From the NCBI GenBank assembly GCA_021014325.1, contig CM037461.1:5919501-5983500 (forward strand): DNA of 64,000 bases, given 5' to 3'. The notes under the pieces were generated by a model that did not search any database, had not been told where the DNA came from, and saw nothing but the letters and a program-made list of their open reading frames with translations. The DNA is from Plazaster borealis. Lineage: Eukaryota; Echinodermata; Asteroidea; Forcipulatida; Labidiasteridae. The position numbers and the translations under genes were made by a program. Below are positions 1,466 to 64,000 of this stretch, piece after piece (the stretch's first letter is position 1; the number at the start of each line of letters is the position of its first letter).

Positions 1466-1616
1466 AGGTGTTCGTGCTCATATTGCACGAACACCTAAAA
1501 CACAAAGAGGTGTTCGCACGAACACCTAATAAAAAAAAACGAACAAAAACAAAGAGTTGTTCGGGCTTAATGCCCGAACACCTAACTAGACTTATAGAGT
1601 TTGTAAAAACAAACTC
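1466..1616. repeat. Hairpin cluster: three right-end hairpins plus one left-end hairpin
   Basis: Hairpin 1 (1,466-1,496) pairs AGGTGTTCGTGC with GCACGAACACCT around a 7-base loop. Hairpin 2 (1,508-1,527) pairs AGGTGTTCG with CGAACACCT. Hairpin 3 (1,559-1,579) pairs GTTCGGGC with GCCCGAAC. Immediately after CCTAACTAGAC comes a different hairpin (1,597-1,616), GAGTTTGT/ACAAACTC, followed by AAGGTGTTCGG, which opens the next block. Stem sequences differ but pairing is kept. Confidence 0.85.
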
Positions 1617-2603
1617 AAGGTGTTCGGCTATCGTTGGGGTCAGTGTTTTATTAATGGGTGAACTATTCCTTTGAACCGATGAAGAGATAATAGTGATAAT
1701 AGCTTTGGAAATGTCAAAGAAAGTAAAATGTAAGTCTTTAACGTTTATACCTAGTTCACACGGGAAACAAGAGCTTAAGTTACTACTTAAGACTGAGTTG
1801 AGCTCTACATGGAACGTGTATTATTTAAACAACTTTCACGTTTTTCAGGGCTTAGGAACCCATGGTTTAATTGCACAAGGTGTGCAATTTTGTTTGACTT
1901 TATTTCGTTGTTCACAAAGAATGTTATTGAAGTATTCAAAAGGATCTAAAAGTTGGATTCTCGTAAAAACTGCTGTTGATAAGAGTCAAACTAATGTTGA
2001 TCTCTTGGCGATTGCATTATCTCAGTTATCAAAAGTCATACAATCAACAAAAACAGGCCAGCAAAATACACTCTTTTAGTCGCTATTTACCGCCATTTAT
2101 TGGACTACCGTGGAACGAGTCGGCATTTGTTGCGGAGCCAATATTTGTTGAATGATCACTAATTTGATATAGCGCCATCATGGATGTGACAGGGACTTTA
2201 CGTTTCAGGTTAAATATTGGTTATACACAGTCTTCTTGGACTTCGAACCTTTGGAACAATGGAGTGGAACAGCCGGCTGCGTGCGAATTATTACTAATGG
2301 AATGTTTAACTTATATTTTGAACCGGAATTTGTCTTGACCTATCATATGCCCAAATATGAATATCATAGCTGTAATATTCAGCGACATACAGGCATTCGC
2401 ATATGGTCACTTTCTTTACCTTAAATGGCTTGTAATTTGACACCCGACGACGTAATCGTGACGTCACAACTTACTCAGCTTCTGCTAGTTATGTTCTAAC
2501 TGCACATGAAGTTTCAAGTTGATCAAATAATTGCAAGTATGCGTTTGCTTGCGGACAAAGCCCACTGAGAAGTAAAACAAAGAAGAAGAAGAAACTAGAG
2601 ATT
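1617..2603. repeat. Repeat block opening with AAGGTGTTCGG
   Basis: Begins AAGGTGTTCGG then TTGGGGTCAGTG, and is homologous at its start to the blocks at 2,628 and 9,236. It ends with a TTGCGGACAAA-type segment and a GAAGAAGAAG purine tract before the hairpin at 2,604. No coding feature is supported. Confidence 0.7.
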
Positions 2604-2627
2604 TAGTGTTTGTTTAAACAAACACTA
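2604..2627. repeat. Left-end hairpin (perfect 24-bp palindrome)
   Basis: A perfect 24-bp palindrome with half TAGTGTTTGTTT, preceded by ACTAGAG and followed by GGTGTTCGG. It has the same position and flanks as the hairpins at 1,597, 9,212, 51,439, 54,497, 59,273 and 61,712. Confidence 0.85.
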
Positions 2628-2799
2628 GGTGTTCGGATTTCATTGGGGTCAGTGTTGTGTCAATGTGTGAAATATTTTATTGAGTCGATGAAAAAATTGC
2701 TGATAGCTTTTAAAATTTCAAAGTGTAAGTCAATTACGTGTATACATTTAGTTTACACGGGAAATAAATGCTAACGTTCCTACTTAAGACTGCATTGAG

Positions 2800-9130: not shown

Positions 9131-9211
9131 TGGGAAAGATGTCAAAGTCTGCGGACAACGATGCGTGTATTTTTGAGGTGGGCGAACAAACTCAAAAATC
9201 CACTAGAGATT

Positions 9212-9235
9212 TAGTGTTTGTTGAAACAAACACTA
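9212..9235. repeat. Left-end hairpin
   Basis: 11-bp stem TAGTGTTTGTT/AACAAACACTA around a 2-base loop, preceded by ACTAGAG and followed by GGTGTTCGG. It is a near copy of 2,604-2,627. Confidence 0.85.
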
Positions 9236-10860
9236 GGTGTTCGGATTTCATTGGGGTCAGTGTTGTGTCAATGTGTGAAATATTTTATTGAGTCGATGAA
9301 AAAATTGCTGATAGCTTTTGAAATGTCAATGTGTAAATCAATTACGTGTATACATTTAGTTTACACGGGAAATAAATGCTAACGTTCCTACCTAAGACTG
9401 CATTGAGCTCTAGAACGTGTATTTATTGAACATTCTGTTTCAAGGTTCATGTAAATATTCATAAACTGTACTGTATACAAGACTTTTACTGACAATTCAA
9501 AAAAGAGCCTCTTAATATATATTTATTTTACTTCCGGTTCGACAGGAAGCCAGGTCAAATCATGTCATTATCAATTATACAGAACTTAAACACGTAAAAA
9601 CATTCACAAAAAATGCAAAGCTTAAAATCATAATAGATATATTTCTCAAGATATGATTTTTCGAAATAATAAACTTTAAATAGATCAAGTTTAACTGCAC
9701 CTTTAAGGTGACTTCATAATTATATGACAATTGATGACGTCACTTAAACAGGATCTTAAATTTTGGATGTTACAAATCCCGGCTTGAACACATGCAAGGT
9801 TATAGCTTTAATCGCGCATTTTTGCCGTAAACATACATCTATGAAAAGTGCACCTTTAAGCCGACTCACGTAAAGCTTGATGACGTCATCGTAATGCGAC
9901 ATTAAATTCTAGATGTAACATATCCCAACTTGAATACATGCAAGGTTTCAGCTCGATTGCACATTTTTTCTGCATTTATCAATCTTGTATTTCTGCATCT
10001 TGTATTTCACGCGATCCACGGCGATATTAAATTTCGATGACGTCAATCTTCTACAAAGCTCACAGAGCAAGTTGTAGAGCCGACCGTCAACATTCCACTT
10101 TGCTCCAATGACCTATTCTTCGGGTTTTACTCTAAACATATGGGGTGAAAACCTGGGCCTATTACTTGCACACATTAAATGTGTTAACAACTGCGCATGA
10201 CAGACTGTTCTATATGTGTGCATAACTAATTAGATCACGTTACTCGCATGTATGCAACATGTGATAACACCCGGAACGATCTCAACACTATAGCGCGTTG
10301 TATGTGTTTTCAGTGGAATTCTTTTCACACGCAATTTCATTTAAGAGTCATTCGATACCGGATTTCAACCGGAAGTTAAGGTCAAATAGGTAACATGTTT
10401 GTGGAAAAGTTTGAGAGGACTTAAGGACATACAACCTGATGTTAAAATTGTGAGTAAGGTGTTTGTGAAATGTATGAATATTTCTTAAAGTATGAATTGT
10501 GAACTTTTCAACTTCCGGTTTAAACACGAAGCTGAGGTCCAATGGGGTCACACTCTGTGTGGCGTTTGCTACATTTTGCCAGACCTATCCGATGATTTAT
10601 AGATTGTTTAAATAGCTTCTAAAATTCTTGAGTTATGATTTTTTGAAATAATCAACTTTGATTTATATTTTTTTTCAAAAACTGATGATGTCACCATGAC
10701 GTAACAACTTTTAGAATCATCTACAAGTTATGGTCTACCTACATGTAAAGTTTCAAGTTAATATAAATTTTGCAACTATGCGTTTGCTTGCGGACAAACG
10801 AGATTCCGAAAAATAATAAAAACTTTTTTAAAAAAAATTTAAAAAACGAACAAAAACAAT
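9236..10860. repeat. Hairpin-bounded non-coding body (~1.65 kb)
   Basis: Runs from GGTGTTCGG to the first CGAACACCT at 10,887. Inside are a TTCCGGTTCGACAGGAAG-type segment (9,533), TGATGACGTCA copies (9,735 and 9,880), and at the right end a TTGCGGACAAACGA segment followed by A-rich sequence. No gene. Confidence 0.65.
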
Positions 10861-11198
10861 AGGTATTCGGCTATTGCCCGAACACCTAAAAAAACAAAAA
10901 AACGAACAAAAACAATAGGTGTTCGGCTGTTGCCCGAACACCTAAAAAAACGAACAAAAACAAAGAGTTGTTCGGGCTTAATGCCCGAACACCTAAAAAC
11001 CGAACAAAAACAAAGAGTTGTTCGGGCTTAATGCCCGAACACCTAAAAACCGAACAAAAACAAAGAGTTGTTCGGGCTTAATGCCCGAACACCTAAAAAA
11101 ACGAACAATAACAAAGAGTTGTTCGGGCGGAAGGCCCGAACACCTAAACAAAACAAAAAGAACAAAAACAAAGAGTTGTTCAGGCTTAATGCCCGAAC
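10861..11198. repeat. Tandem array of seven hairpins (~50-56 bp period)
   Basis: Seven units at 10,861-10,887, 10,917-10,943, 10,970-10,990, 11,020-11,040, 11,070-11,090, 11,121-11,141 and 11,178-11,198. Units 3-5 repeat at exactly 50 bp. Each has a spacer CGAACAAAAACAAAGAG, a stem such as GTTCGGGC/GCCCGAAC and the end ACACCTAA. Loops vary (TTAAT, GGAAG, TGTT). The spacer is conserved and the stem variable in part, which is unlike CRISPR. Confidence 0.9.
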
Positions 11199-11204
11199 AC
11201 CTAA

Positions 11205-27885: not shown

Positions 27886-30216
27886 TTAAAGGGCCTGGAA
27901 AGAATCATGGTTGTAGTATGGGGGAATGAAACTGCTCGGGTTCTGCTGGGGGTTCTGTCGAGGGATCTGTTGGGGGTTCTGTCGGGGGATCTGTTGGGGG
28001 TTCTGCTGGTAGCTCGGTTGTTGTTGCTTATTGCCAAACATGGTGGCCAGTTGGAGGATCAGGTCATTGGACGCCTTCATTTTTCTCTCCTCGAGATCAA
28101 ATCGTTCCCGTCTCCAACGCTCTTCCCTCTCTTCGCGTTTGTTTTGCTGCTCCTTTTCCCATAGGAATCGCTCCTGTTCCATCTTGAGAAGTGAACTGAC
28201 ACTGTCATCTTGTTCCTTTTGTTTGAAATCTATTAGTTTCCCTACGGCCTTGTCAAGGGCGTCCTCCACCTGCGTTTTCCGGCCTCTTCGTTTTCTGATT
28301 TGTAACCCTGTTGAAAAATGATTAAACAAATCTGAATAATGTGCACAAATTATTAAGAAATTTATGGAGCTGGTATGACTCTCAGTTTAGTGTCAAACTT
28401 TTTTCCAGCTAAAAAGGTGATTATTTCTTTTGAGTAATTTCAAATGTGCATGAAGGCAATTCTCGTTAATAATGTGCAACATTTATGTCAAACAGAATCC
28501 ATCAGTTCTTGACATTTTTATATGATTCTTCAAAATGTTCAGTCTGGTTTTAAAGTCGGCAAATTTGTTACAAACAATGATTTGTCAATTTAAGGAATCA
28601 GCATATTTTTTACCTGATGTACCCGGCTTATTAGAATCTTTGGTTGTCTGATCCTTCTCCTTTACCACGCTGTCCAGAGATGCTCCACTGGTGTTGGCAG
28701 CATCGTCCTCTGCATCAACCATGTCAACATCAGAGTCATCTTAAGGTTATGATACAAAAAGCAATTGTAAAATACATCTTAACAAAATTTTCTTGATGCA
28801 TTATCTCAGGCTATAAAAACAAATGTAAATGCCAAACCAAATGTTAATGACGAAACAAATTTGTAAAAGGGTTGCGCAAATCTCTTTCCCCATTTGAAAG
28901 CCCAAAATATGATGATTGCATGACTCTCTGAAATGACCGTGCATCTTGATAGTAGTCGAATCTCTTTAAGAGTTCATTGGGACTTTTTATTAACCTTGTT
29001 ACAACATCAGGAGCCTTTTGTAGTATCGGGTTATGAAAATGGGGAAAAATGAATTGGGACCCGCAATTTTTTCTTGCAGGTAGAATTTTGTATTCACGGT
29101 ATTCTTATTATCGAAGTCCAGCGTTAATAATCAGTCCCTGGTCTAAAGCTTGCATTGTTAAGTTGCCAAACCATTTGTGTGCACACACAAACGAAAACAA
29201 AATCATGTATGGAGGAAACCCAACTTACCTTCCTGACCGAGTTCAGTTGATGGGGATTGAGGTGACAAGGGCTCAGTAGGATGTTCAGTCCATGCCTCTA
29301 GCCCATCAGCATCATCTCCAGAACCGGCATCCATATGGTGATGCGACTTGCAATTATTCATTGGACGTTTTCCTGGAGAGAACAAAATTAATATCTCCTT
29401 TAGATAGAAAACAAATCAGTCACATGTCTTAAAAAAGTAAACCACCCAACTGTGAACACCCCCCAACTGTGAACCCCCCCCCTTGAAAAAGAGGACGACT
29501 CATTTAAAACAAAACAATAAATTACTTTCCTTGATTTGAACCTGCCCCACACAAAAAATAATCACAGGGGGTAGGGGGCCTAATCATATTATTATAATAA
29601 AATAACAAAATGAAATAATTTTGGGACAGACATTGAGACAATACAATGTACACAAATTAGGCAATTTTGTTCAGTACATGAAATCAAAGAGAAAAGTGAA
29701 AGAAGCCGGCATGGCACTAAAATAAATGGATAACAAAGCAATTAAAAATATTGCATTTACAAGGATGTCAACGAATTTCCATGTCAACGATGTTTAAATT
29801 CAACACACGGTCTCGAAGCTAGATCAGAACTTACCGATGATCTGGTTGATCTCCTCGTAGTAGGGCGACGTTAATCGGCCTCGCCCAGAGGTGTTGTTAA
29901 CTTTTTTGGCTTCTCTATATTTTCTACGGAGGTAGTCCATTCGGTCCTTTAAGGACTCCCATGTTGTGTACAGGGAGTCCGGGAACTTGGCCGAAAACTG
30001 GGCCAGAATTGATGCCCACACACGCGAGTTGTAAATCATTCCCTCGAATCCGGCTTGGTGTTCCTCTGACCCCCAGATCGCAATCAAACCTACAGTCTCA
30101 GCATGACCCCAATTCTTTTTCCTTTTTCCCTCACTAGACCCACTAGCTGTCTTAGATTTTCTCTTTCTCGGGGCTTTCGTTGACGGCGGAGCATTTGGGG
30201 CAGAACAAGAAGCCAT
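27886..30216 (-). CDS. Harbinger Myb/SANT-like DNA-binding protein (4 exons)
   Basis: Predicted exons in coding order are 30,216-29,835, 29,372-29,229, 28,739-28,614 and 28,307-27,886. All junctions are phase 1 with GT-AG (donors GTAAGT, GTAAGT, GTAAAA), giving about 357 residues. The N-terminus is basic (PRKRKSK). Residues ~34-125 form a trihelix/Myb-SANT-like domain (NWGHAETVGLIAIWGSEEH, VWASILAQF, TWESLKDRMDYLRRKYREAK, SPYYEEINQIIG). Exons 2-3 are acidic linkers. Exon 4 has a charged coiled coil (KREEREERWRRERFDLEERK) and a Q/N/P-rich repeat tail. In this superfamily the protein binds element ends and helps bring the transposase to the nucleus. All exons are open, so the element could be autonomous. 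Confidence 0.85.
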
Positions 30217-30535
30217 TTTCAAGTTGATGTTGTTGTAGGAATGTGTACAATTAATACTACTGACTAGCGTGTGTAAAAATAATATAGCGTCGCGTCGTGT
30301 CGTCAATATAGCGCGCGAAAACTACGTCAGAGACACGTCGTATCCTGCTAAGGTCAAAGGTGACTGTGCACAGCGCCCCCGATGTGTGACATTTGCCAGT
30401 CTTGGAGAGCGAGTTAACTGTTCCGTCGCGGAATTTAAGTCCAGGTGGGAACGCACGGTAGAACTACACCTAATCCAGTCACGGTAACTTTCCGTGTGGC
30501 CGCGGAAGAAAAAGTCCAATGGGAACACGGCTTTA

Positions 30536-34450: not shown

Positions 34451-35219
34451 GCACTGCTTACCAGTCTACTGAAAAACAAGGTATCTTATTAATTTGACCC
34501 ACCCTGGCCATTTTATAATAAACATCTGGTCCTCTTGTGTCGGCCTGAGGTCTCCAACCACAGAGCCAGAGTGACAGGATGATTGATTGCCTGATAGTAG
34601 AGGCACAAGATCAATGACCTTGTAGGGTGTATCGTATGTCAATGTGTATACAATTCCCATGGGATTTTATGGGACTTCGCAGTTAAAGGTGACTGTATAG
34701 GTTGATGACTCACCCCAAGCTAAACAGGCTTTTACAGTGTTGTAGATGGGGGGGGAGTCGAGGATTATGAAAAATTTCAAATTTTTTGACCGCACCGTTA
34801 ATGACTTAACACAATTTGTTTACGACGGTACAGTCAAATACTGCGCGATGCTGCAGCGCAGGGTTAAAGGGTCTGTAACTGACAAGAAATTGCAAATCGG
34901 GTGTGTACTTCTTGAGATCTGGTCCCACTTCCGGTTGACCCGGAAGTATCGGTCAACAAGGGGTCACGGTAACCGAAGTTCAATCTTTATCGCTCAAAGG
35001 ATCTATAACTGAAAAGAAATTTAACATCGGCTGTGTAGGCCTACTTCTTGAAATATGGTCCCACTTCCGGTTGACCCGGGACTAAAGGTCAACATGGTGT
35101 CACGGTAACCCAAGGCTAATCTCAAATGCCCAAGGAGTCTATAACTTAAACAAGTTTGAAAATCGGCTGTGTACTTCTTGAGATATGGTGCAGCAAATAT
35201 TAACTAATTAAAGCTTTAA

Positions 35220-35480
35220 ATTACCGTAATTTGACACCTGATGACGTCACAGTAACAAAAATATGTTTTTCATACTAATAAATTTGATAAGGTACACGAT
35301 GGTATGTAACTTATCCCAATCCAATGCCTTTTAACGAAAACCCTATTAAAACGTACGTATATCCTCTCTCGGTCAGGATTCCAATATCAGGGCAGTCTTT
35401 GACGCCTAGCCGTGATTGCGCAATCACGGCACAATTTGCCAGCTAGCCATGGGGTCTGATTTGTCACTTTATTGTTAATT
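35220..35480. repeat. Direct repeat with 22-bp perfect palindrome, copy 1
   Basis: Matches 36,505-36,770 (offset ~1.29 kb). It contains a perfect 22-bp palindrome with half GCCGTGATTGC at 35,409-35,430 and a CCTGATGACGTCACAGTAAC segment. Confidence 0.75.
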
Positions 35481-36129
35481 ATCTTGGAATTACATTGTAC
35501 CTTGATTAGTTTTAATGGTCTGGAATAACTCTTAGTGAAAGCATACGTGTATTTAAAAAAAAATATTTCTTTTAGGTAACTAAAACTTAACTTATTTGGA
35601 AAAAATTGAGTGTTTGACCAACTAAACACTTACACTTTTCAGAGCCATCCTCAATGCTCAACAGGCTTAAAACTGAAAAGAATTCTAAAATTGGCTGTGT
35701 AGTTCTTGAGATATGGTCCCACTTCCAGTTGACCCGGAAGTAAAAGTTAACATTGGGTCACGGTAACCCAAGTTCAATTTCAATGCTCAAAGGGTCTATA
35801 ACTGGAAAGAAATTGAAAAACGGGTGTGTACTTCTTGAGATATGGTCCCACTTCCGGTTGACCCAGAAGTAAAGGTCATCAAGGGGTCACGGTAACCGAA
35901 GTTCAATTTTTGATGCTCAAAGGATCTATAACTGAAAAGAAATTGAATATCGGTTGGGTAGTTCTTGAGTTATGGTCCCACTTCCGGTTGACCCGAAACT
36001 AAAAGTCAACATGGGGTCACGGTAACCCAAGGATAATCTCCTATGCCCAAGGAGTCTATAACTGAAAAAAGGTTTGAAAATCGGCTGTGTACTTCTTGAG
36101 ATCTGGTGCTGCAAAGATTAACTAAGTAA

Positions 36130-48829: not shown

Positions 48830-49335
48830 AATAACTGTGTTCAACTTGGATTTTGTTCCAGTCAAATTGTTTGCCCTTTCTTAATGTGTATGTTGTTATT
48901 TTTAAGCATCAACAAACCAAGTCCTAGTCAATATAAATTGAAACTATGGATTGAGTGGCTGTGCTAGAAAGAGAAGTGCGTGACACTTCTCTTCTTTTTA
49001 GTCCAAACCCCAACCCTAACCCTAGTCCTAACCAATCCTAACCCTAGCCCAAACCCTAACCCTACTTTAGCCCCGTACCCTAATTCTGGCACTCAATGAG
49101 TCAAAGAGCCATGACATGTTTCTAGGTGGGCACATATAGTTTTTGTGGAAACTACTCCCATCTCCGCTGAAAGCCTCCATCTCTTTGTTCGAGAATCATG
49201 TCAACATTATTTTTCCTCTGGAGTTTGTTTGATCTTCAGATTAGGGTGGGGTGCAGAATGTGTTGGCATGTGTAAGGGGTTGGTAGCTGGGATACTGGTC
49301 GTTCAATCAGGTCAATTATGTGACCAACTAGATCC
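48830..49335. repeat. Duplicated repeat with telomere-like tract, copy 1
   Basis: Matches 50,590-51,190. It has GTGGCTGTGCTAGAAAGAGAAG then degenerate CCCTAA repeats (49,009-49,080), then CTACTCCCATCTC and TTAGGGTGGGGTGCAGAATGTG. Confidence 0.7.
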
Positions 49336-50590: not shown

Positions 50591-51190
50591 ATTTTTCAGC
50601 ATCAACAAGCCTAGTCCTAGGCAATATAATTTGAAGCAATGGATTACCTGGCTGTGCTAGGAAGAGAAGTAAATGACCCGTCTCTTATTAACCCTAAGTC
50701 TAATTTTAGCCCAAACCCTAACCCTAACCCTAATCCTAACCAACCCTAACCATAGCCCATATTCTGGCCCTAACCCGTACTGCTGTAGGTCACCGAAATG
50801 GGTCAAAGACCCATGACAAGTTTCTAGGTGGGCTGATATAATTATATATTTTTAGGGGAAAGTACTCCCATCTCTGCTGAAAGCCTCCAACTCTTTGTTC
50901 GAGATAGTACGCAATCATGTCAACAATTTTGTTTATCTGGAGTTTGGTTGATCCTCATTTTAGGGTGGGGTGCAGAATGTGCTGGCATATGTATGGGGGG
51001 GACTGCTCTATATTCCGACACCCCTATGTTCCGACAACCCCCTCATGATTTACGTAAGGTTAGGGTTAGGGTTAGGGTTAGGGTTAAGGTTAGGAATAGG
51101 AAAATACACCAGGGTTGTCGGAACATAGGGGTGTCGGAACATAGGGGTGTAACCGTATGGGGTTGGTAGCTGGGGTAATGATTATTCAAT
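50590..51190. repeat. Duplicated repeat with telomere-like tract, copy 2
   Basis: Second copy of 48,830-49,335, with an AACCCTAACCCTAACCC tract near 50,715 and the small foldback element at 51,011 as an insertion. Confidence 0.7.
51011..51150. mobile_element. Foldback element around TTAGGG repeats
   Basis: The left arm ends with TGTTCCGACAACCC at 51,040. The right arm from 51,112 (GGGTTGTCGGAACATAGG...) is its complement and carries an additional copy of the GTGTCGGAACATAGGG unit. Between them is a (TTAGGG) run of about five units (51,058-51,094). No coding. Confidence 0.75.
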
Positions 51191-51438
51191 CTAGTAAATT
51201 TTGTGGCCAACTAGAGCCAATAGACACAATCGGCGACCGGCGTCACGTGACTCATAGTGGGTATACAATGTATTAAAACAAACAGCGCGGTGTGTATGGA
51301 AAAACTTGGCAGCATCCGAGTGCCACTGCTGTAAGGGGTCATGATTCATGTTGCATTTGTTGGTTGCAAGTTGCAACACGATTTTAACTTTTCTAAATCC
51401 ATCTGAAGTAATATAATATTAATAATAACTAGACTTAA

Positions 51439-51458
51439 CTTTTTGTTGTAACAAAAAG
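51439..51458. repeat. Left-end hairpin
   Basis: CTTTTTGTT/AACAAAAAG stem (9 bp), loop GT, preceded by AACTAGAC and followed by AAGGTGTTCGG. Confidence 0.85.
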
Positions 51459-51987
51459 AAGGTGTTCGGTAGACTTGTCCAATTAGCGAAAACTCACGGG
51501 GATATGAAGAAAAAGAAGTATTACAAAAAACAGCAGTGAATGGTCACAGGGATCACAATTTGTGTAAGATTTTAAAAATACTCCAGGGTCCTTTACACGG
51601 TCCAAAGATCTTGTGTTTAGCAATTATGGCTCTCCAGATATGATTTTTCGAAATATTAAACATTGATTTAATGTTATAACATCATCGATGACGTCACCAT
51701 CCCGAAAACCTATATGTGAAGTTTGTAGAGTTTCAAGTTTATATGTGCTTGGGAAGTGTGCTTTTGTTAGCGGAAAAGCGACGGGGAGAAGAAGAAAAAT
51801 AAGTATTAAGAAAAAAAGAAAACTAAATTAAATGTAAAAGTTCATCTTTCGGTTTGAACCGGAAGTCCAGTTCAAATGGGGCCACACTCTGTGTAGCGCT
51901 TGTGAAGTTGTAAAAACTCATTACCCAAGGATTTTATGCCTGAACAAAGTTTGAAAATCGGTTGTGTAGTTCTTGAGATATGGTGTC

Positions 51988-52507
51988 ACTTCCGGTTGAC
52001 CCGGAAGTAAAGGTCAACATGGGGTCACGGCTACCCAAAGCTAATCTCTAATGCCCAAGGAGTCTAAAACTGAAAACAGTTTGAAAATCGGTTGTGTAGT
52101 TCTTGAGATATGATCTCACTTCTGGTTGACCTGGAAGTAAAGGTCAACATGGGGTCACGGTTACCCAAGGCTAATCTCCAATGCCCAAGGAGTCTATAAC
52201 TGAAACAAATTTGAAAATCGGTTTAGTAGTTCTTGAGATATGTTGTTACTTCCGGTTGACCCGGAAGTAAAGGTCAACATGGGGTCACGGTTACCCAAAG
52301 CTAATCTCCAATGCCCAAGGAGTCTATCACTGCAAACAGTTTGAAAATCGGTTGTGTAGTTCTTGAGATATGGTCCCACTTCCGGTTGACCCGGAAGTAA
52401 AAGTTAACATGGGATCACGGTTACCCAAGGCTAATCTCCAATGCCCAAGGAGTTTATAACTGAAAAAAGTTTGAAAATCGGTTGTGTAGTTCTTGAATTA
52501 TGATTTT
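51988..52507. repeat. 130-bp tandem repeat array (4 units)
   Basis: ACTTCCGGTTGACCCGGAAG-type unit starts at 51,988, 52,118, 52,248 and 52,378, spaced exactly 130 bp. Each unit also has GGGGTCACGG, TACCCAA, AATGCCCAAGGAGTCTA and GAAAATCGGTTGTGTAGTTC. The 61-residue ORF inside is a by-product of the repeat. Confidence 0.9.
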
Positions 52508-54496
52508 TTTTTAAATCTGACATTTAATTGTAAGCGAGGTTTGCACGGACGGCTGTTTTAGAGACTAACAAAGCGTAATGTCAAAATCTCTGTGGAAAAG
52601 TTTGAGAAGGCTTAAAAATCTACAACATGATGTAAAAATTGTGAGTAATGTGTATGTAAAAAGTACAAGTATTCCTTAAAGTTTGAATTGTGAAGTTTTC
52701 AACTTCCGGTTTGAACAGGAAGACAAGGTCAAACGGTATAAGACTCTGTTAATAGTATTTGCTACATTTGTCAAGACCTCTCCGATGATGTATAGATTGT
52801 TAAAATAGCATATGTACTTCTTGCGTTATGAATTTTTAAATGATTAAACTTTGTTTTTCTGTATTTAAACACTTGATAACGTCATCATGACGTCACAACT
52901 ACTTGATTGAGGTTTTATCAAGTTCCTTACACGGTGTAAATTTGAAGTTGATCTGATACACAGAAGTTAATGTTTTTGCCGGGAAAGTGTTTTTTTGAAT
53001 AATTACACCAAGGCAAACTTTGACCTTCCGGTACGACCGGAAGTTAAGGTCATACGATTTTGACATTAACTTTTTAAATGTTGCCCGTGTCTTGATCTAT
53101 CATATGCCCAAATATGAATACCATAGCTGTAATATTCAGAGACATACGGGCATTGGCATATGGTCACTTTTTCCCCTTAAATGGCTTGTAACTTGATACC
53201 TTATTCCTAATCTGAAAGCATACAAATTTGAACAATAAGGGTGTTTTTTCTTTCATCATTTTCTTGCAACTTCGATGACCAATTGAGCCCAAATTTGCAC
53301 AGGCTTGTTATGTTATGCATATGTTGGGATACACCGAATGAGATCACTGGTCTTTGACAATTACCAAACGTGTACAGTGCCTTTAAATGAAGAATCATTT
53401 TGAAAGGCAATGACGCTTACCGTTTTATTCACCGTGTCGCACTGATAGACACCGCCGTCAAATGACGGTCTGAAACGCCCTTTTACGAGCCGATGTCATG
53501 CCCCGTTTCTCGGTGTCTGATAAAAACATAACCAATGTTTGTTATTGTCTGCTTGCAATTTCTCACATAATTAAAAGTCATACGAATCACTTAAGCAGGT
53601 GGCCATCTCAGTAAAACTTCGTCTTCGATTCCATGTTCACCATTGAGCCATCGGGAACAACTTGACGCTGAACATGGCACAGGTTGAGCGGAATTTAATT
53701 CTGCAGTGTTTTTACGCCATTGATAAGCTACCGCTATAAGTGCGTTGAACTGCGACACGTCAAAACTTGCACGGAAATCATGCCACTACATCCAGCCTTC
53801 AGTGAAGGCGCACATCCGAGGGCTACTAACGAAATGTTCAACTTACATTTTGAGTCGGAGGTCAAGGTCAAACGGGGTCACTCTTTGTGTAGCGTTTGTT
53901 GAGTTTTGAAAGATCTGTCCGATGATGCATAGATTGTTGAAATCCATTACATCGTTATCGAGTTATGATTTTTTGAAATATTAAACTTTGATTTACTGTA
54001 ATTCGACACCTGATGACGTAATCATTACGTCACAACAAGTTGATGGAGGTTTCATCATGTTTCTAATATGGTGTAAATTTGAAGTTGATCAGATAAACAG
54101 AAGTTAAGAATTTTGCCAGGAAATGATTTTTTGTTAAGAATTGCAGAAAGGCAAACTTTGACCTTCCGGTACGACCGGAAGTAAAGGTCAAGTGAATTTA
54201 ACGTTAACTTTTTAAATGTTGCCCATGTCTTGATCTATCATATGCCTAAATATGAATACCATAGCTGTAATATTCAGAGACATACATGCATTGGCCTGAG
54301 GGCACTTTTTGAACTAAAATGGCTTGTAATTTGACACCCGATGACGTCATCATGACGTCATTGCTCACACACCTTCTGCTTGTTATGTTCTAACGTCACA
54401 TTAAGTTTCAAGTTGATCAAAGGTTTGCAAGTATGGTTTTTTTTGCGGACAAACGCCAAACAGAAGAAAAAGAAGAACTAAAAAACTAGACTTTCA
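52508..54496. repeat. Composite repeat between array and hairpin
   Basis: 52,600-53,170 matches 58,500-59,090 and 60,960-61,550. 53,210-53,390 is a partial inverted copy of 3,055-3,400. 53,850-54,480 is a further related block with TGACGTCA at 54,342 and 54,353. Confidence 0.7.
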
Positions 54497-54518
54497 GTTT
54501 TTGTCATGTGACAAAAAC
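54497..54518. repeat. Left-end hairpin
   Basis: 10-bp stem GTTTTTGTCA/TGACAAAAAC with a TG loop, preceded by AACTAGACTTTCA and followed by AAGGTGTTCGTGG. Identical at 61,712-61,733. Confidence 0.9.
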
Positions 54519-56192
54519 AAGGTGTTCGTGGGGAGTGATTGAATGAATAAACATTCTACCTTATCAATCCAATGCCTGGTCCAGGAGTTATGAATTTTTC
54601 TAAAAATTTAACATCAACTTCCGGTTTGGACCGGAAGTCAAGGTCAAATAGGGGTCATATTATGTGTTGCGCATTTAGTTTATGAAGACGTTTTAGATGA
54701 TGTATGGATTGTAAACCTCAAACGATTTCTTGAAACATTAACCTTTACTTTCCGGTTCGAACCGGAAGTCAAGGTCAAATGAGGTCACAGTGTGTAGCGT
54801 TTCTTAAATCTTTGGAGCCCTTTCTGATGAGGTATAGATGATAAAAATCCAATGTGTGGTTCAGGAGTTCTGATTTTTTCAAATATTAAATTTCATCTTC
54901 CGGTTTGAACAGGAAGTAAAGGTCACTTGGGGTCACATTCTGTATATCGTTTGTTAAGTTGTTACATACTTGTCCGATGGTGTATAGATTGTAAAAATCC
55001 ATCGTGTGGTTCAGGAATTATGAATTTTGAAACATTAAATTTCAACTTCCGCTTTGAACCGGAAGTCAGGGTCAAACGGGGTCACAATAAGTGTAGCGTA
55101 TGTTAGGTTTTACAAAGACCTTTCAGATGATGTATAGATTGTAAAAATCCAATGTGTGGTTCAGGAGTTACGAATTTTTCAAGTATTACATGGATTATCT
55201 TCATGCCGGGGTGCGCAATATACAAGGTAACAGCGATGCTATTTAATGTATTCCTACATGTAGTTGATGTAAACTGAACTACACGCACAATGTACGTGTA
55301 TCTGTACACGTGTTATTACACCATCTTGCGTTATCAAATTGGGTCAACACAAACGTGCGCTTTAATGCCGGTGGTCATAAGACAAGATGTAAATGTCAAA
55401 ATGTTGTTAGTTCTGTGCAAAAGTTTGAGCTGGCTCAACGTTCTACAACCTGATGCAGAAATTATGCTGAAAAGATAAGTAGTTTTTGAGATACGAAATT
55501 TATATAATTTTAAATTTCCGGGTTGAACCGGAAGTCAAGGTAAAATGGGGTCACTTTCTGTGTAGCGTTTGTTGGACCTTTAACGAACTTTCCGATGATG
55601 TATAGATTGTAAAAATCCAACATGTCGTTCATGAGTTATGATTTTTTTCAAATATTAAACTTTGATTGAATGTAATTCAATACCTGATGACGTCATCATG
55701 ACATCATCAAGTTTGTGTCGTCTTGATATTTAGGTTCAAATGTCTGATGAGTTTCAATGTAAAATTCAATTTCAATCTTGAGTTATGTCGTAGATAAGCC
55801 CGAAAATGATGTTTTTCAAGAAAAAAACCAAAGGCAAACTTTGACCTAGGGCATGATCTTGAAGAAAAGGTCATACGATTTTGACGTTAACTTTTGAAAT
55901 GTAGCCCCAGTCTTGATCTATCACATGCCCAATTATGAACATCATAGCTTTCATATTCAATGAGATACAGCAAATACCAAATGGTAATTTTTCAACTTTA
56001 AAAACGTTGTAATTCGACACCTGATGAAGTCATCATGACGTCATGACAATTGTGCCGTCCTCATATTGAGGTTCAATTGTCTGATGAGTTTCAAGGTTCA
56101 ATTCAGTTTCAATGTTGAGTTATGCTGTAGAGAAGAGTTCTAGGGAAGAAGAAGATGGAGAATAAAAAAAAAAAAAAACGGAACAATAACAA
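54519..56192. repeat. Hairpin-bounded non-coding body
   Basis: Begins AAGGTGTTCG; CGAACACCT closes it at 56,223 (about 1,705 bp). It has palindromes TTCCGG...CCGGAA at 54,619, 54,750 (perfect, TTCCGGTTCGAACCGGAA), 54,898 and 55,047, then TGACGTCA elements, then a GAAGAAGAAGATGG purine tract. Collinear with 61,734-63,403. Confidence 0.8.
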
Positions 56193-56327
56193 GAGGTGTT
56201 CGTGCTCATATTGCACGAACACCTAAAAAATCCGAACAATAACAAAGAGTTGTTCGGGCTGAATGCCCGAACACCTAAAAACTGAACAAAAATAAGAGGT
56301 GTTCGGAGCAAAGCTCTCCGAACACCT
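56193..56327. repeat. Three right-end hairpins
   Basis: Stems AGGTGTTCGTGC/GCACGAACACCT (56,193-56,223), GTTCGGGC/GCCCGAAC (56,251-56,271) and AGGTGTTCGGAG/CTCCGAACACCT (56,297-56,327). The third uses GGAG/CTCC where others use GTGC/GCAC or GGGC/GCCC. Confidence 0.9.
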
Positions 56328-57260
56328 AATAATAACGTAAACTTATATAGCGCCAAAATCCGCCAAAAAAGACGGAAGGGTGGCCAGTTTTGCAATTTTC
56401 AAACGTTGTCGAAATGGTTTGGTAAAGCTAAAAAAAACAGTGGCACACAAACAATCCTGTGGAAGTTTTGTTTATAAAGGGAAGAGCGAAATCATTCATG
56501 TAGCCGTGTTCAAGCAAATCAGAGGATGGGATCATCATGTAACCACAAATTTTTGTTTATGATATTCGATAAAGGCATCATATTTTATGAGGGATTTTTA
56601 CAGGACATGCAAAGAAAATAGTTAGTCAAGACCGGTTTATACGCACTCAAGGTGTTCAAAAGGCTTATAATTTGTTACGGTTTATATGAAGATTCTCCCC
56701 GTAACGAGTGAGAATCATAATGAAGTGCAAGCTTTAAGAAACAAAAAGTTTGATGCGACAAGTATAGTTCTTTTAGAAAGGGGCGGGGGGAGAAGAGAAC
56801 AAACAGAGGAAGGGGCAAAGAAAAACCGCGGGAGGGCCGGGAAGGGCGGACGGAAAGGACAGACGGACCGAGGCAGAAGCCAGAGGAGTGCCCAAGCACC
56901 GGCTCCGCCCAGACAGTCTGCAGACAATTAATGATGTGTTGATGGGAGTGCGGGACTAAATATAACTATTTACGGCGGCAGCCAATGAGAGAAAGCAATC
57001 GGTATAGTGAATCGTTGTGTACTGTAACTTTTGTCCCACGGCTCCGGTGGGGTCTCTGAAAATAACCAAGTTCGTGTATTGTTCAAGTTGGTAGGTTAAA
57101 AAGTCAGTAGGTGATGGTTAAAACAGAGCTTTTCTTCGATGTTTTCAAGCAACCTGCCGGAAAACTACGAAAATCCCATTGAGCTCCCCGTGCTTAAACA
57201 CTGCGCGCGAGGGTTGTTATGATTCTGTACCCACTGTACGTCACGTGACCACCGATTGTG
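56328..57260. other. Non-coding segment duplicated at 63,472-64,000
   Basis: Follows the hairpins. Includes a G-rich stretch (GGGGCGGGGGGAGAAGAG near 56,781). Small ORFs (56,380-56,562 and 56,686-56,931) recur in the other copy but show no domain, so I do not call them genes. Confidence 0.5.
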
Positions 57261-58080: not shown

Positions 58081-59272
58081 TGAGAAGTAAAGGTCAACAT
58101 GGGGTCACGGTTACCCAAGGCTAATCTCCAATGCCCAAGGATTTTATAACTGAACAAAGTTTGAAAATCGGTTGTGTAGTTCTTGAATTATGAATTTTTT
58201 AAAAATCTGACATTTGATTGTTAGCGAGGTTTGCACGGACGGCTGTTTCAGAGACAAACAAAGCGTAATGTCAAGTTCAGGTGCCTGAACCTTGAAAAGA
58301 GACTAGACTACAAGCATGTTTGAAGGACTTTGAACCTTGCGGTTTGATTCAATGGAGCAAGCAGCCGCTCACCGTCTAACTGGTTTATATCGCGTATTGT
58401 GTGTGTTTTCAATGCAGTTTATTCCCGCGGTTTGACAGCGGGTCAATGTATACCCGATTTCAACCATAAGTGAAGGTCAAAAAGGTAACATCTCTGTGGA
58501 AAAGTTTGAGAAGGTTAAAAAATCTACAACATGATGTAAATATTGTGAGTAATGTGTATGTAAAAAGTACGAGTATTTCTTAAAGTATGAATTGTGAAGT
58601 TTTCAACTTCCGGTTTGAACAGGAAGACAAGGTCAAACGGTATAAGACTCTGTGTAGTATTTGCTACATTTGTCAAGACCTCTCCGATAATGTATAGATT
58701 GTTATGATCGCTTATGTACTTCTTGAGTTATGAATTTTTAAATGATTAAACTTCGATTTACTGTATTTTAACACTTGATGACGTCATCATGACGTCACAA
58801 CTACTTGATTGAGGTTTTATCAAGTTCCTTACATGGTGTAAATTTGAAGTTGATTTGATAAACGGAAGTTAATGTTTTTGCCGGGAAAGTGTTTTTTTGA
58901 AGAATTACACCAAGGCAAACTTTGACCTTTCGTTACGACCAGAAGTAAAGGTCATGTGAATTTGGCGTTTTCTTTTCAAATGTTGCCCGTGTCTTGATCT
59001 ATCATATGTCCAAATATAAATACTGTAGCTGTAATATTCGAGGACATACAGGCTTTCGCATACGGTCAATTTTTTACCTTAAATGGCTTGTAATTTGATA
59101 TCTGATGACGTCATCATGACGTAACTAAAGCGGTTTCATCTCCTAATAAATATCTAACTATATGTGAAGTTTCAAGTTCATGTGATGTTGGGAAAGGTGT
59201 CTTAGTTACCGGACAAGGGACGGAGAGAATCAGAAGAAAAAAATAAATAAAACGAACAATAACTAGAGATGA
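58081..59272. repeat. Repeat unit with partial 130-bp repeat and palindromes
   Basis: Starts within a 130-bp unit. 58,280-59,260 matches 60,740-61,700 (offset ~2,455). Contains TTCCGGTTTGAACAGGAAG and TGATGACGTCATCATGACG near 58,780. Confidence 0.75.
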
Positions 59273-59295
59273 GTTTTTTGTCATGTGACAAAAAC
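59273..59295. repeat. Left-end hairpin
   Basis: GTTTTTTGTCA/TGACAAAAAC with one unpaired T, preceded by AACTAGAG and followed by AAGGTGTTCG. Confidence 0.85.
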
Positions 59296-59871
59296 AAGGT
59301 GTTCGCGGGGAGTGATTGAATGAATAAACATTCTACCTTATCAATCCAATGCCTGGTCCAGGAGTTATGAATTTTTCTAAAAATTTAACATCAACTTCCG
59401 GTTTGGACCGGAAGTCAAGGTCAAATAGGGGTCACATTTTGTGTAGCGCGTTTAGTTTATGAAGATGATTTAGATGATGTATGGATTGTAAACCTCCACC
59501 AATTTGTTGAAACATTAACTTTCACTTTCCGGTTTGAACCGGAAGTCAAGGTCAAATGAGGTCACAGTGTGTAGCGTTTCTTAAATCTTTGGAGCCCTTT
59601 CTGTTGATGTATAGATGATAAAAATCCAATGTGCGGTTCAGGAGTTCTGATTTTTTCAAATATTAAATTTCATCTTCCGGTTTGAACAGGAAGTAAAGGT
59701 CAATTGGGGTCACATTCTGTAAATCATTTGTTAAGTTGTTACATACTTGTCCAATGATGTATAGATTGTAAAAATCCATTGTGTGGTTCAGGAATTATGA
59801 ATTTTGAAACATTAAATTTCAGTTAATTTTCAGTTTGAAAATCGGGCGAGTAGTTCTTGAGATATGGTGTC

Positions 59872-60650
59872 ACTTCCGTTTGACCCGGAAGTAAAGGTCA
59901 ACATGGGGTCACGGTACCCAAGGCTAATCTCCAATGCCCAAGGAGTCTATAACTGTAAAAAATTTGAAAATCGGTTGAGTAGTACTTGAGATATGGTGTC
60001 ACTTCCGGTTGACCCGGAAGTAAAGGTCAACATGGGGTCACGGTTACCCAAAGCTAATCTCTAATGCCCAAGGAGTCTATAACTGAAAACAGTTTGAAAA
60101 TCGGTTGTGTAGTTCTTGAGATATGGTGTCACTTCCGGTTGACCCGGAAGTAAAGGTCAACATGGGGTCACGGCTACCCAAAGCTAATCTCTAATGCCCA
60201 AGGAGTCTATAACTGAAAACAGTTTGAAAATCGGTTGTGTAGTTCTTGAGATATGATCTCACTTCCGGTTGACCTCGAAGTAAAGGTCAACATGGGGTCA
60301 CGGTTACCCAAGGCTAATCTCCAATGCCCAAGGAGTCTATAACTGAAACAAATTTGAAAATCGGTTTAGTAGTTCTTGAGATATGTTGTTACTTCCGGTT
60401 GACCCGGAAGTAAAGGTCAACATGGGGTCACGGTTACCCAAAGCTAATCTCCAATGCTCAAGGAGTCTATCACTGAAAACAGTTTGAAAATCGGTTGTGT
60501 AGTTCTTGAGATATGGTCCCACTTCCGGTTGACCCGGAAGTAAAGGTCAACTTGGGATCACGGTTACCCAAGGCTAATCTCCAATGCCCAAGGAGTTTAT
60601 AACTGAACAAAGTTTGAAAATCGGTTGTGTAGTTCTTGAATTATGATTTT
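59872..60650. repeat. 130-bp tandem repeat array (6 units)
   Basis: Unit starts at 59,872, 60,001, 60,131, 60,261, 60,391 and 60,521 (129 then 130 bp steps). Same unit as 51,988-52,507. The last units match that array in order, so the arrays are duplicates with different unit number. Confidence 0.92.
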
Positions 60651-61711
60651 TTTAAAAATCTGACATTTAATTGTTAGCGAGGTTTGCACGGACGGCTGTT
60701 TTAGAGACTAACAAAGCGAAATGTCAAAATCAGGTTGCGCGAACCTTGAAAAGAGACTAGACTACAAGCATGTTTGAAGGACTTTGAACCTTGCGGTTTG
60801 ATTCAATGGAGCAAGCAGCCGCTCACCGTCTAACTGGTTTAGATCGCGTATTGTGTGTGTTTTCAATGCAGTTTATTCCCGCGGTTTGACAGCGGGTCAA
60901 TGTATACCCAATTACAACCATAAGTGAAGGTCAAAAAGGTAACATCTCTGTGGAAAAGTTTGAGAAGGCTTAAAAATCTACAACATGATGTAAAAATTGT
61001 GAGTAATGTGTATGTAAAAAGTACAAGTATTCCTTAAAGTTTGAATTGTGAAGTTTTCAACTTCCGGTTTGAACAGGAAGACAAGGTCAAACAGTATAAG
61101 ACTCTGTTTAGTATTTGCTACATTTGTCAAGACCTCTCCGATGATGTATAGATTGTTAAAATAGCATATGTACTTCTTGCGTTATGAATTTTTAAATGAT
61201 TAAACTTTGATTTACTGTATTTCAACACTTGATGACGTAATCATGACGTCACAACTACTTGATTGAGGTTTTATCAAGTTCCTTACACGGTGTAAATTTG
61301 AAGTTGATCTGATACACAGAAGTTAATGTTTTTGCCGGGAAAGTGTTTTTTTGAAGAATTACACCAAGGCAAACTTTGACCTTCCGGTACGACCGGAAGT
61401 TAAGGTCATACGATTTTGACATTAACTTTTTAAATGTTGCCCGTGTCTTGATCTATCATATGCCCAAATATGAATACCATAGCTGTAATATTCAGAGACA
61501 TACGGGCATTGGCATAGGGTCACTTTTTCCCCTTAAATGGCTTGTAACTTGATACCTAATGACGTCACCATGACGTAACTAAAGCGGTTTCATCTCCTAA
61601 TGAATATCTAATCATATGTGAAGTTTCAAGTTCATGTGATGTTGGGAAAGGTGTCTTAGTTACCGGACAAGGGACGAAGAGAAGTAGAAGAAGTAAAAAA
61701 CTAGACTTTCA
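60651..61711. repeat. Repeat block between array and hairpin
   Basis: Second copy of 58,200-59,270. Palindromic TTCCGGTTTGAACAGGAAG near 61,062 and TGATGACGTAATCATGACG near 61,231. Confidence 0.75.
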
Positions 61712-61733
61712 GTTTTTGTCATGTGACAAAAAC
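61712..61733. repeat. Left-end hairpin
   Basis: Same 10-bp stem as 54,497-54,518, preceded by AACTAGACTTTCA and followed by AAGGTGTTCGTGG. Confidence 0.9.
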
Positions 61734-63403
61734 AAGGTGTTCGTGGGGAGTGATTGAATGAATAAACATTCTACCTTATCAATCCAATGCCTGGTCCAGG
61801 AGTTATGAATTTTTCTAAAAATTTAACATCAACTTCCGGTTTGGACCGGAAGTCAAGGTCAAATAGGGGTCACATTATGTGTAGCGCATTTAGTTTATGA
61901 AGACGTTTTAGATGATGTATGGATTGTAAACCTCAAACGATTTGTTGAAACATTAACGTTTACTTTCCGGTTCGAACCGGAAGTCAAGGTCAAATGAGGT
62001 CACAGTGTGTAGCGTTTCGTAAATCTTTGGAGCCCTTTCTGATGATGTATAGATGATAAAAATCCAATGTGTGGTTCAGGAGTTCTGATTTTTTCAAATA
62101 TTAAATTTCATCTTCCGGTTTGAACAGGAAGTAAAGGTCACTTGGGGTCACATTCTGTATATCGTTTGTTAAGTTGTTACATACTTGTCCGATGGTGTAT
62201 AGATTGTAAAAATCCATCGTGTGGTTCAGGAATTATGAATTTTGAAACATTAAATTTCAACTTCCGCTTTGAACCGAAAGTCAGGGTCAAACGGGGTCAC
62301 AATAAGTGTAGCGTATGTTAGGTTTTACAAAGACCTTTCAGATGATGTATAGATTGTAAAAATCCAATGTGTGGTTCAGGAGTTACGAATTTTTCAAGTA
62401 TTACATGGATTATCTTCATGCCGGGGTGCGCAATATACAAGGTAACAGCGATGCTATTTAATGTATTCCTACATGTAGTTGATGTAAACTGAACTACACG
62501 CACAATGTACGTGTATCTGTACACGTGTTATTACACCATCTTGCGTTATCAAATTGGGTCAACACAAACGTGCGCTTTAATGCCGGTGGTCATAAGACAA
62601 GATGTAAATGTCAAAATGTTGTTATTTCTGTGCAAAAGTTTGAGCTGGCTCAACGTTCTACAACCTGATGCAGAAATTATGCTGAAAAGATAAGTAGTTT
62701 TTGAGATACGAAATTTATATAATTTTAAATTTCCGGGTTGAACCGGAAGTCAAGGTCAAATGGGGTCACTTTCTGTGTAGCGTTTGTTGGACCTTTAACG
62801 AACTTTCCGATGATGTATAGATTGTAAAAATCCAACATGTCGTTCATGAGTTATGATTTTTTTTTCAAATATTAAACTTTGATTGAATGTAATTCAATAC
62901 CTGATGACGTCATCATGACATCATCAAATTTGTGTCGTCTTGATATTTAGGTTCAAATGTCTGATGAGTTTCAATGTAAAATTCAATTTCAATCTTGAGT
63001 TATGTCGTAGATAAGCCCGAAAATGATGTTTTTCAAGAACAAAACCAAAGGCAAACTTTGACCTAGGGCATGACCTTGAAGAAAAGGTCATACGATTTTG
63101 ACGTTAACTTTTGAAATGTAGCCCCAGTCTTGATCTATCACATGCCCAATTATGAACATCATAGCTTTCATATTCAATGAGATACAGCAAATACCAAATG
63201 GTCATTTTTCAACTTTAAAAACGTTGTAATTCGACACCTGATGACGTCATCATGACGTCATGACAATTGTGCCGTCCTCATATTGAGGTTCAATTGTCTG
63301 ATGAGTTTCAAGGTTCAATTCAGTTTCAATGTTGAGTTATGCTGTAGAGAAGAGTTCTAGGGAAGAAGAAGATGGAGAAGAAAAAAAACGGAACAATAAC
63401 AAG
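61734..63403. repeat. Hairpin-bounded non-coding body, duplicate copy
   Basis: Near-identical to 54,519-56,192 with an offset of ~7,215 falling to 7,211. It has the perfect palindrome TTCCGGTTCGAACCGGAA at 61,965-61,982. Confidence 0.85.
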
Positions 63404-63471
63404 AGGTGTTCGTGCTCATATTGCACGAACACCTAATAAGAGGTGTTCGGAGCAAAGCTCTCCGAACACCT
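63404..63471. repeat. Two right-end hairpins
   Basis: Hairpins with GTGC/GCAC (63,404-63,434) and GGAG/CTCC (63,441-63,471). Relative to 56,193-56,327 the middle GGGC/GCCC hairpin is cleanly absent. Confidence 0.9.
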
Positions 63472-64000
63472 AATAATAACGTAAACTTATATAGCGCCAA
63501 AATCCGCCAAAAAAGACGGAAGGGTGGCCAGTTTTGCAATTTTCAAACGTTGTCGAAATGGTTTGGTAAAGCTAAAAAAAACAGTGGCACACAAACAATC
63601 CTGTGGAAGTTTTGTTTATAAAGGGAAGAGTGAAATCATTCATGTAGCCGTGTTCAAGCAAATCAGAGGATGGGATCATCATGTAACCACAAATTTTTGT
63701 TTATGATATTCGATAAAGGCATCATATTTTATGAGGGATTTTTACAGGACATGCAAAGAAAATAGTTAGTCAAGACCGGTTTATACGCACTCAAGGTGTT
63801 CAAAAGGCTTATAATTTGTTACGGTTTATATGAAGATTCTCCCCGTAACGAGTGAGAATCATAATGAAGTGCAAGCTTTAAGAAACAAAAAGTTTGATGC
63901 GACAAGTATAGTTCTTTTTAGAAAGGGGCGGGGGGAGAAGAGAACAAACAGAGGAAGGGGCAAAGAAAAACCGCGGGAGGGCCGGGAAGGGCGGACGGAA
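63472..64000. repeat. Duplicate of 56,328-56,850
   Basis: Near-identical copy, offset 7,144, running past the window end. Confidence 0.8.

Follow-up and report, generated by a model that had tools for sequence, protein, structure and literature searches.

What kind of element carries a hairpin at either end, with stems that change in pairs from copy to copy, and how does one of those ends come to have several hairpins in a row? The question is raised by a 64,000-nucleotide stretch of the genome of the sea star Plazaster borealis (C7:5,919,501-5,983,500; 'the window' hereafter). A sequence-only reading had noted in it three bodies of similar length, each preceded by a 'left' hairpin and closed by 'right' hairpins, and had proposed a rolling-circle transposon, Helitron- or Helentron-like, with its enzyme encoded elsewhere, that it could match to no named family. 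We analysed the window and searched the whole 560.6-Mb assembly (717 contigs) for the ends, and we are confident that the elements are non-autonomous rolling-circle transposons of the Helitron2/Helentron type (HINEs) lying on the minus strand; that they nest within one another, the second part of this reading, is partly shown. The rolling-circle proposal is thus supported—the ends recur genome-wide, and the paired changes hold—and there is a named group with such a layout: Helitron2/Helentron, HINE.

Anatomy of the elements

The marked unit reads on the minus strand, where its end anatomy is the published Helitron2/Helentron layout. A plus-strand reading, with the left end as the 5' end, was rejected: our structure scan (anchor CGAACACC, a perfect stem of 8–11 bp, a loop of 2–4, and CTAG 5–8 nt further) found CGAACACC followed by a hairpin and CTAG at seven sites on the minus strand and at none on the plus, and the minus reading fits the published layout. 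The side that had been called right is therefore the 5' end, and the other side the 3' end. At the former, TTAGGTGTTCG folds on itself into a hairpin, the 'right' hairpin of the earlier reading; at the 3' end the order is subterminal inverted repeat (CGAACACCT, the 3'-ATIR), second hairpin (the earlier 'left' hairpin) and CTAG. Element A1 begins, 5' to 3', with TAGGTGTTCG, TGC, a loop, GCA and CGAACACCTC, and continues through a T-rich tract and a TTC-rich stretch into a body with a 150-bp tandem array; then come CGAACACCTT, the hairpin GTTTTTGTC/GACAAAAAC, 7 nt, CTAG and the T of the flank (Table 1).

Table 1. Rolling-circle elements and their ends in the window
Feature	Position	Strand	Basis or remark
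Element A1, non-autonomous Helitron2/Helentron (HINE), 1740 bp	54486..56225	-	5' end at 56225, uncertain by one T; 3' end at 54486
A1 3' hairpin, GTTTTTGTC/GACAAAAAC, 7 nt before CTAG	54497..54518	-	Structure scan and folding
A1 3'-ATIR, CGAACACCT	54520..54528	-	Adjoins 3' hairpin on inner side
A1 internal tandem array, period about 150 bp, 3 copies	54730..55178	-	
A1 innermost 5' hairpin, stem AGGTGTTCGTGC/GCACGAACACCT	56194..56224	-	TT in front; holds 5'-ATIR; folding included
Second 5' hairpin of A1 stack (GGGC/GCCC)	56248..56276	-	Read as outer element's 5' end; join after removal of A1 restores a 5' region
Outermost 5' hairpin of A1 stack (GGAG/CTCC)	56297..56327	-	Folding included
Element A2, second copy of A1, 1735 bp	61701..63435	-	Identity to A1
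A2 3' hairpin	61712..61733	-	Structure scan
Two stacked 5' hairpins at A2	63404..63471	-	TGC type inner, GGAG type outer
Element B, TAGTGTTTGTT 3' hairpin	9203..10888	-	1686 bp up to innermost 5' hairpin
Stack of seven 5' hairpins	10861..11202	-	Steps of 50–57 bp
Stack of three 5' hairpins	1466..1583	-	Elements behind run toward or off left edge of window
Family C 3' end, GAGTTTGT stem	1586..1626	-	Abuts 5' end at 1583
B-family element 3' end	2595..2635	-	Sits in TTC microsatellite
Family D 3' end, CTTTTTGTT stem	51429..51468	-	
A-prime 3' end	59263..59305	-	Downstream flank TATTGTTCG is the spacer normally found after a 5' hairpin

Much of the original description stands. The element ends do coincide with hairpins, but the left hairpin lies inside the element, which runs on to CTAG (54486-56225, 61701-63435 and 9203-10888). 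All seven left hairpins lie beside ACTAGA, as had been said, and are the seven sites of the minus-strand scan; the four left stem types are real in the window, and the right stem types GTGC/GCAC, GGGC/GCCC and GGAG/CTCC all occur among the 15 right hairpins. The bodies are indeed non-coding, the three of them holding no open frame of 150 aa or more. The central repeats and microsatellite of HINEs are present in the window as 150-bp tandem arrays and as a GAA tract (1408-1443) directly inside the 5' hairpin at 1466.

The window contains the word GGTGTTCG 30 times, where 1.18 occurrences would be expected and 6 was the largest number in 100 shuffles. In all 15 sites found through the word CGAACACCT and TT, the 5' terminal hairpin contains the 5'-ATIR, in agreement with the published position 0–2 bp from the end, and at all seven 3' ends the 3'-ATIR lies directly upstream of the 3' hairpin, for which the published layout gives about 20–30 bp from the end; the ATIR word was the anchor of the search, and its constancy is hence not independent evidence. 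TT precedes AGGTGTTCG at 15 of 15 5' ends, and TCTAGT is found at 7 of 7 3' ends, with T as the next base in six. The 5' hairpins stand in four stacks, of three, seven, three (56194-56327) and two, and include two copies of a shorter form and another form that has hardly any loop. In a sample of 7 of the 22 window hairpins, folded as single-stranded DNA, the energies were -12.9 to -14.3 kcal/mol for three 5' hairpins (z -7.7 to -8.2) and -5.7 to -8.0 kcal/mol for four 3' hairpins (z -1.9 to -3.5).

These ends are not peculiar to the window. The 3' end pattern, CGAACACCTN{18,30}TCTAGTT, has 1,705 matches in the assembly (851 + 854) against 8 (2 + 6) for the reversed-pattern control, and the 5' hairpin pattern 1,849 (864 + 985) against none (0 + 0). 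The genomic ends examined individually were the first 100 matches listed for each pattern, all of which are on contig C1.

Other repeats occur in the window. Another tandem repeat, of about 130 bp and containing a near-palindrome, CTTCCGGTTGACCCGGAAG, is found at 34906-36107, 51924-52504 and 59831-60639; its layout is related to that of the 150-bp repeat, and it occurs in family D and beside A-prime. Short arrays of palindromic GGCGGCCGCC units, in both orientations, lie at 23815-24141, and internal telomere-like AACCCT/GGTTAG repeats at 49006-49064, 50710-50751 and 51058-51094. Of a different nature are an open PIF/Harbinger-type transposase (DDE_Tnp_4) and, on the other strand, a Myb/SANT-like protein (25468-26574 and 29824-30321), which possibly belong to a single transposon as its two genes; of the named proteins listed, the closest to the transposase are those of the crinoids Antedon mediterranea (61%) and Anneissia japonica (65% over 62% of the query).

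Boundaries and target sites

Elements A1 and A2 are 98.6% identical, and their identity breaks at the predicted ends. At the 3' end, every 20-base block from 54486 on matches 20 of 20, whereas the blocks ahead of it, some of them slightly longer, match 9–16 of 20; at the 5' end, the block spanning 56225 is down to 12 matches in 25. Outside the elements, the two copies have on their right side a common outer GGAG hairpin and 528 bp of flank that is 99.6% identical (56328-56855 and 63472-64000), compared with 82% for the left flanks. Because of these right flanks, the second and third copies are not fully independent; the right side was recently duplicated or exchanged within the array.

T-rich DNA lies on both sides of the elements. 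Six copies on C1, one of which (C1:11530070) has another 5' hairpin in front, read TTAGG at the 5' end and CTAG|TT at the 3' end, and by eye no target duplication is visible in those six. The 3' search pattern itself required TT, so that the independent look at the target comes from the 5' side. There, the base before TT at the 15 window 5' ends is A in five, T in nine and G in one, and four of the six C1 copies read AATTAGG; the insertion point may therefore be either T|T or A|T, a difference of one T, and an element that starts with TT and inserts between A and T would be one possible reading.

Compensated changes in the 3' stems

The paired stem changes that first drew attention to the locus hold among the 100 genomic 3' ends listed, where they are mostly compensated. 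Neither of the findings that would have told against the first reading, ends away from the hairpins or uncompensated stems, came up in the copies compared. Within the window (6 distinct rows), both partners differ in 3 of the 10 base pairs of the 3' hairpin, and the covariation score is reached by 1 of 500 shuffles. The 100 listed 3' cores from C1 include 62 unique ones, and the 49 of these that carry the inner TTTGT...ACAAA, by which they could be anchored, served as rows. Their outer three stem pairs are Watson-Crick in 126 of 146 cases, leaving 20 that are not, against 92.3 after shuffling (sd 3.9; maximum 105 in 2,000 shuffles), where shuffling re-deals the 3' sides of the stems among the copies and kinship between copies remains.

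A smaller alignment of 30 unique sequences picked for diversity (29 from C1, one from the window) has 22 cells that change on both sides, which none of 500 shuffles reached, against 9.6 after shuffling; two other covariation measures of the same alignment, the counts of pairs and of pair types, are not above the shuffles. A perfect stem of at least 7 is present in 84 of the 100 listed cores, and 14 of the 62 unique cores fall below 7 with no mismatch allowed.

A non-autonomous Helitron2/Helentron

The classification follows from the end anatomy, the recurrence of both ends genome-wide, the compensated stems in the copies listed, the T-rich targets, and the break of identity at the predicted ends. 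Helitron2 elements, as described by Bao and Jurka (2013, PMC3627910), have hairpins at both ends, a 5'-ATIR 0–2 bp from the 5' end within the 5' hairpin, a 3'-ATIR that adjoins the 3' hairpin on its upstream side, a T as the 5' terminal base, and compensatory stem changes; all of these end features are common to the present elements. The difference is that many of ours have stacks of two to nine 5' hairpins, which, as far as we know, that description does not include. HINE/DINE-1 elements, the non-autonomous Helentrons in the account of Thomas et al. (2014, PMC4067079), resemble ours in their subterminal inverted repeats, 3' palindrome, T-rich targets, central repeats and lack of coding capacity, and the same account gives an element with 5' TT and 3' CTAG; HINEs make no target duplication, and none was seen by eye in six of the present copies. 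The present family differs in having an ATIR sequence of its own and a partner that is so far a candidate. Cg_HINE of the Pacific oyster (PMC7492417) is described with the same succession of parts—5' subTIR, complementary inverted repeat, microsatellite, satellite-like tandem repeats, 3' subTIR and palindrome—in a different host and with different sequences; its description mentions tandem whole elements and, as far as we know, no stacked 5' ends. By the published descriptions, then, the anatomical features match, and what we have is a new family of a known kind, the non-autonomous Helitron2/Helentron, with marked self-nesting.

By analogy with these systems, a Rep-helicase made elsewhere would nick at the T before the 5' ATIR hairpin, and one strand would then be peeled off. 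Pairing of the 5'-ATIR with the 3'-ATIR, together with the 3' hairpin before CTAG, would mark the stop, and the strand would be joined into another T-rich site without duplication of the target.

Two other kinds of transposon have some of these properties. A canonical Helitron (Helitron1) lacks a 5' hairpin, has its 3' hairpin just ahead of CTRR, and goes into the target between A and T. CTAG with a hairpin in front of it is compatible with that description, as is A|T insertion, given the ambiguity of one T, and the assembly contains other Rep lineages, presumably of the canonical type; against this, our elements have a strong 5' hairpin, an inverted repeat that connects both ends, and a 5' end that reads TTAGG or TAGG rather than TC, and we consider a canonical Helitron very improbable. 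Slighter still are the chances of a cut-and-paste element, a MITE or foldback, that has terminal inverted repeats and depends on a DDE transposase: the short inverted repeat AGGTGTTCG/CGAACACCT and the presence of a PIF/Harbinger-type transposase gene within the window would suit it, but the repeat is asymmetric, being terminal at one end and separated from the other end by about 33 nt that include a hairpin and CTAG, and six copies are without target duplication by eye.

Stacked 5' hairpins and probable self-nesting

Up to 19.25 Mb on C1, 94 of the 100 listed 5' hairpins (six beyond that point were dropped) fall into 47 groups, 29 of them single and 18 stacks of 2–9, and 31 of the 47 steps within stacks measure 50–65 bp. 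Fifteen of the 29 single groups have a 3' end 1.6–2.6 kb downstream. Hairpin types are mixed in 13 of the 18 stacks and uniform in five; the ATACAA type lies directly outside the ATATGA type seven times, and inside it once.

Of the seven 3' ends in the window, four lie inside what appears to be a relative's 5' region, namely those at 54485, 61700 and 59262 and one, at 2594, that is in a TTC tract; that at 1585 abuts a 5' end, and those at 9202 and 51428 are not in such sites. When A1 was excised in silico, an ordinary 5' region was rejoined that aligns across the junction with the uninterrupted one at 10785-10889. The evidence here is the alignment through the junction and not the score of the join, which was 94.3 for the real join and reached 94.0 for the true left with random right pieces and 82.4 for the true right with random left ones; the high random scores probably come from random pieces that fall in other copies. 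The extra 'right' hairpins are stacked 5' ends. Their best explanation is that elements inserted into the T-rich tract just inside the 5' hairpin of a relative and later moved as units bounded by the outer 5' end and the first 3' end.

Do 5' and 3' ends then accumulate together? Clustering of both kinds of end on C1, with a gap of 8 kb, used the 94 5' hairpins, 100 strict 3' ends and 12 looser ones chosen within 15 kb of a stack from a list that reaches 14.3 Mb. Of the resulting 92 clusters, 25 hold both kinds of end, while 12 consist of 5' ends alone and 55 of 3' ends alone. The end patterns are strict, and some partner ends may be missed in these counts. Among the 25 two-ended clusters, 23 begin with a 5' end and all finish with a 3' end; 12 are balanced (11 of these being simple pairs), 12 have an excess of 5' ends, and one has fewer. 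With a gap of 4 kb, 22 clusters comprise 13 balanced, 8 with more 5' ends and 1 with fewer. Counts of 5' and 3' ends correlate across clusters with rho 0.81 (8-kb gap) and 0.68 (4-kb gap), both values being inflated by cluster size alone; comparison group by group, halting at the next stack, gave rho 0.34.

A strict nested bracket, with one 3' end for each stacked 5' hairpin, was rejected as the whole story on these figures: the 25 clusters include 12 with an excess of 5' ends, and all but one of the 12 balanced clusters are simple pairs, so that nesting alone does not explain the size of the stacks. Might they have arisen solely by local tandem duplication or unequal crossing-over, with no nested insertion? 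Of the seven hairpins at 10861-11202, spaced in steps of 50–57 bp, three have the same sequence and a fourth departs from it at a single base; recombination does occur at the second and third stacks, since their right flanks are 99.6% identical and their left flanks 82%; and the 5' excess in 12 of 25 clusters and the five single-type stacks of the 18 on C1 point the same way. What speaks against duplication as the sole cause is that the other 13 C1 stacks combine hairpin types, that the expected 5'-region sequence is present on both sides of 54485, that 59262 is flanked by such sequence on its visible side at a different position in the tract, and that series of 3' ends, too, lie behind some stacks. 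We judge that explanation, in its exclusive form, rather unlikely; local duplication and recombination nonetheless add to the stacks, and nested insertion is partly shown.

For Fusarium oxysporum, the authors of FoHeli (PMC5148889) describe elements in which a single 3' terminus goes with several 5' termini, each short (<200 bp), and propose that an element inserts into itself and that the stretch between the outer 5' terminus and the first 3' terminus then transposes. Our elements are similar in this combination, and differ in that the stacks reach nine, that several hairpin subfamilies take part, and that the element is non-autonomous. In our reading, which is partly shown, the fungal route applies in the sea star as well: the T-rich tract just inside the 5' hairpin is a favoured target in which relatives nest, nesting piles up 5' hairpins in steps mostly of 50–65 bp, and multi-hairpin elements spread when the stretch from the outermost 5' end up to the first 3' end transposes again. 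Such a route adds 5' ends without 3' ends, and so fits the commoner imbalance inside clusters; the 55 clusters with 3' ends only mean that 5' ends are also lost, or are missed by the strict pattern. We suggest tentatively, as an idea with somewhat less than an even chance, that the element's own 5' T-rich tract is its preferred landing site, and that self-insertion combined with outer-5'-to-first-3' transposition ratchets up the number of 5' hairpins, the elements spreading as nested, multi-origin arrays, possibly with an advantage in nicking or spreading.

Rep-helicase genes in the assembly

The Pfam domain Helitron_like_N accounts for at least 27 rows in the assembly (30 candidates scored). 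At least 16 of these are on C7, the contig of the window, although it makes up 4.4% of the assembly, and they lie at C7:4.5-13 Mb (L009, L012-L017, L021-L024 and L026); a sex chromosome or a region of low recombination might possibly account for this enrichment. Twenty Rep loci that we compared form three lineages. The largest has open frames of up to 2461 aa and, in the two loci tested, a PIF1 helicase and an endonuclease domain, the Helentron arrangement; the others are presumably of the canonical Helitron type.

A Rep-helicase-endonuclease of this assembly is a candidate for the autonomous partner, although none of the ten Rep loci read carries both of the present ends. In one of these ten loci, read for about 10 kb on each side, a 5' hairpin is correctly placed and oriented: at C7:11.72 Mb (L033:3061), TTAGGTGTTCGGGCATATAGCCCGGAACACCTC lies on the Rep strand about 0.7 kb before the first long frame. 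This region (L033/L034, C7:11.716-11.736 Mb) has a twin at C19:19.39-19.42 Mb, to which pieces spread over about 16.8 kb, the Rep-helicase gene included, are 97–100% identical, and which has an additional insertion of about 13.6 kb. The twin shares the hairpin and about 390 bp further out, so that the hairpin is not shown to be the end of the Rep element. Behind the Rep gene, no matching 3' end was found in the ten loci within about 10 kb on each side; in two of them, 3' ends of other copies lie in front of the gene. A search for hairpin and CTAG in the same ten loci, with mismatches allowed in eight, found only ends of other copies, and comparison of the large Rep loci for common ends did not define any.

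Significance

Helentron proteins have been reported in sea urchin (PMC4067079), and the present family would add to the Helentrons of echinoderms; a literature search on crinoid Helitrons and genome assemblies found no such paper among the titles listed. The role of each hairpin is a poorly understood step of Helitron2/Helentron transposition, and for this the sea star offers a large natural data set: more than 1,700 3' ends, with stems that, in the 100 listed, vary around a fixed ATIR and are mostly compensated. The self-nesting is the most interesting part. The idea, put forward for a fungus, that multiple 5' termini arise by self-insertion becomes countable here in the genome of an animal.
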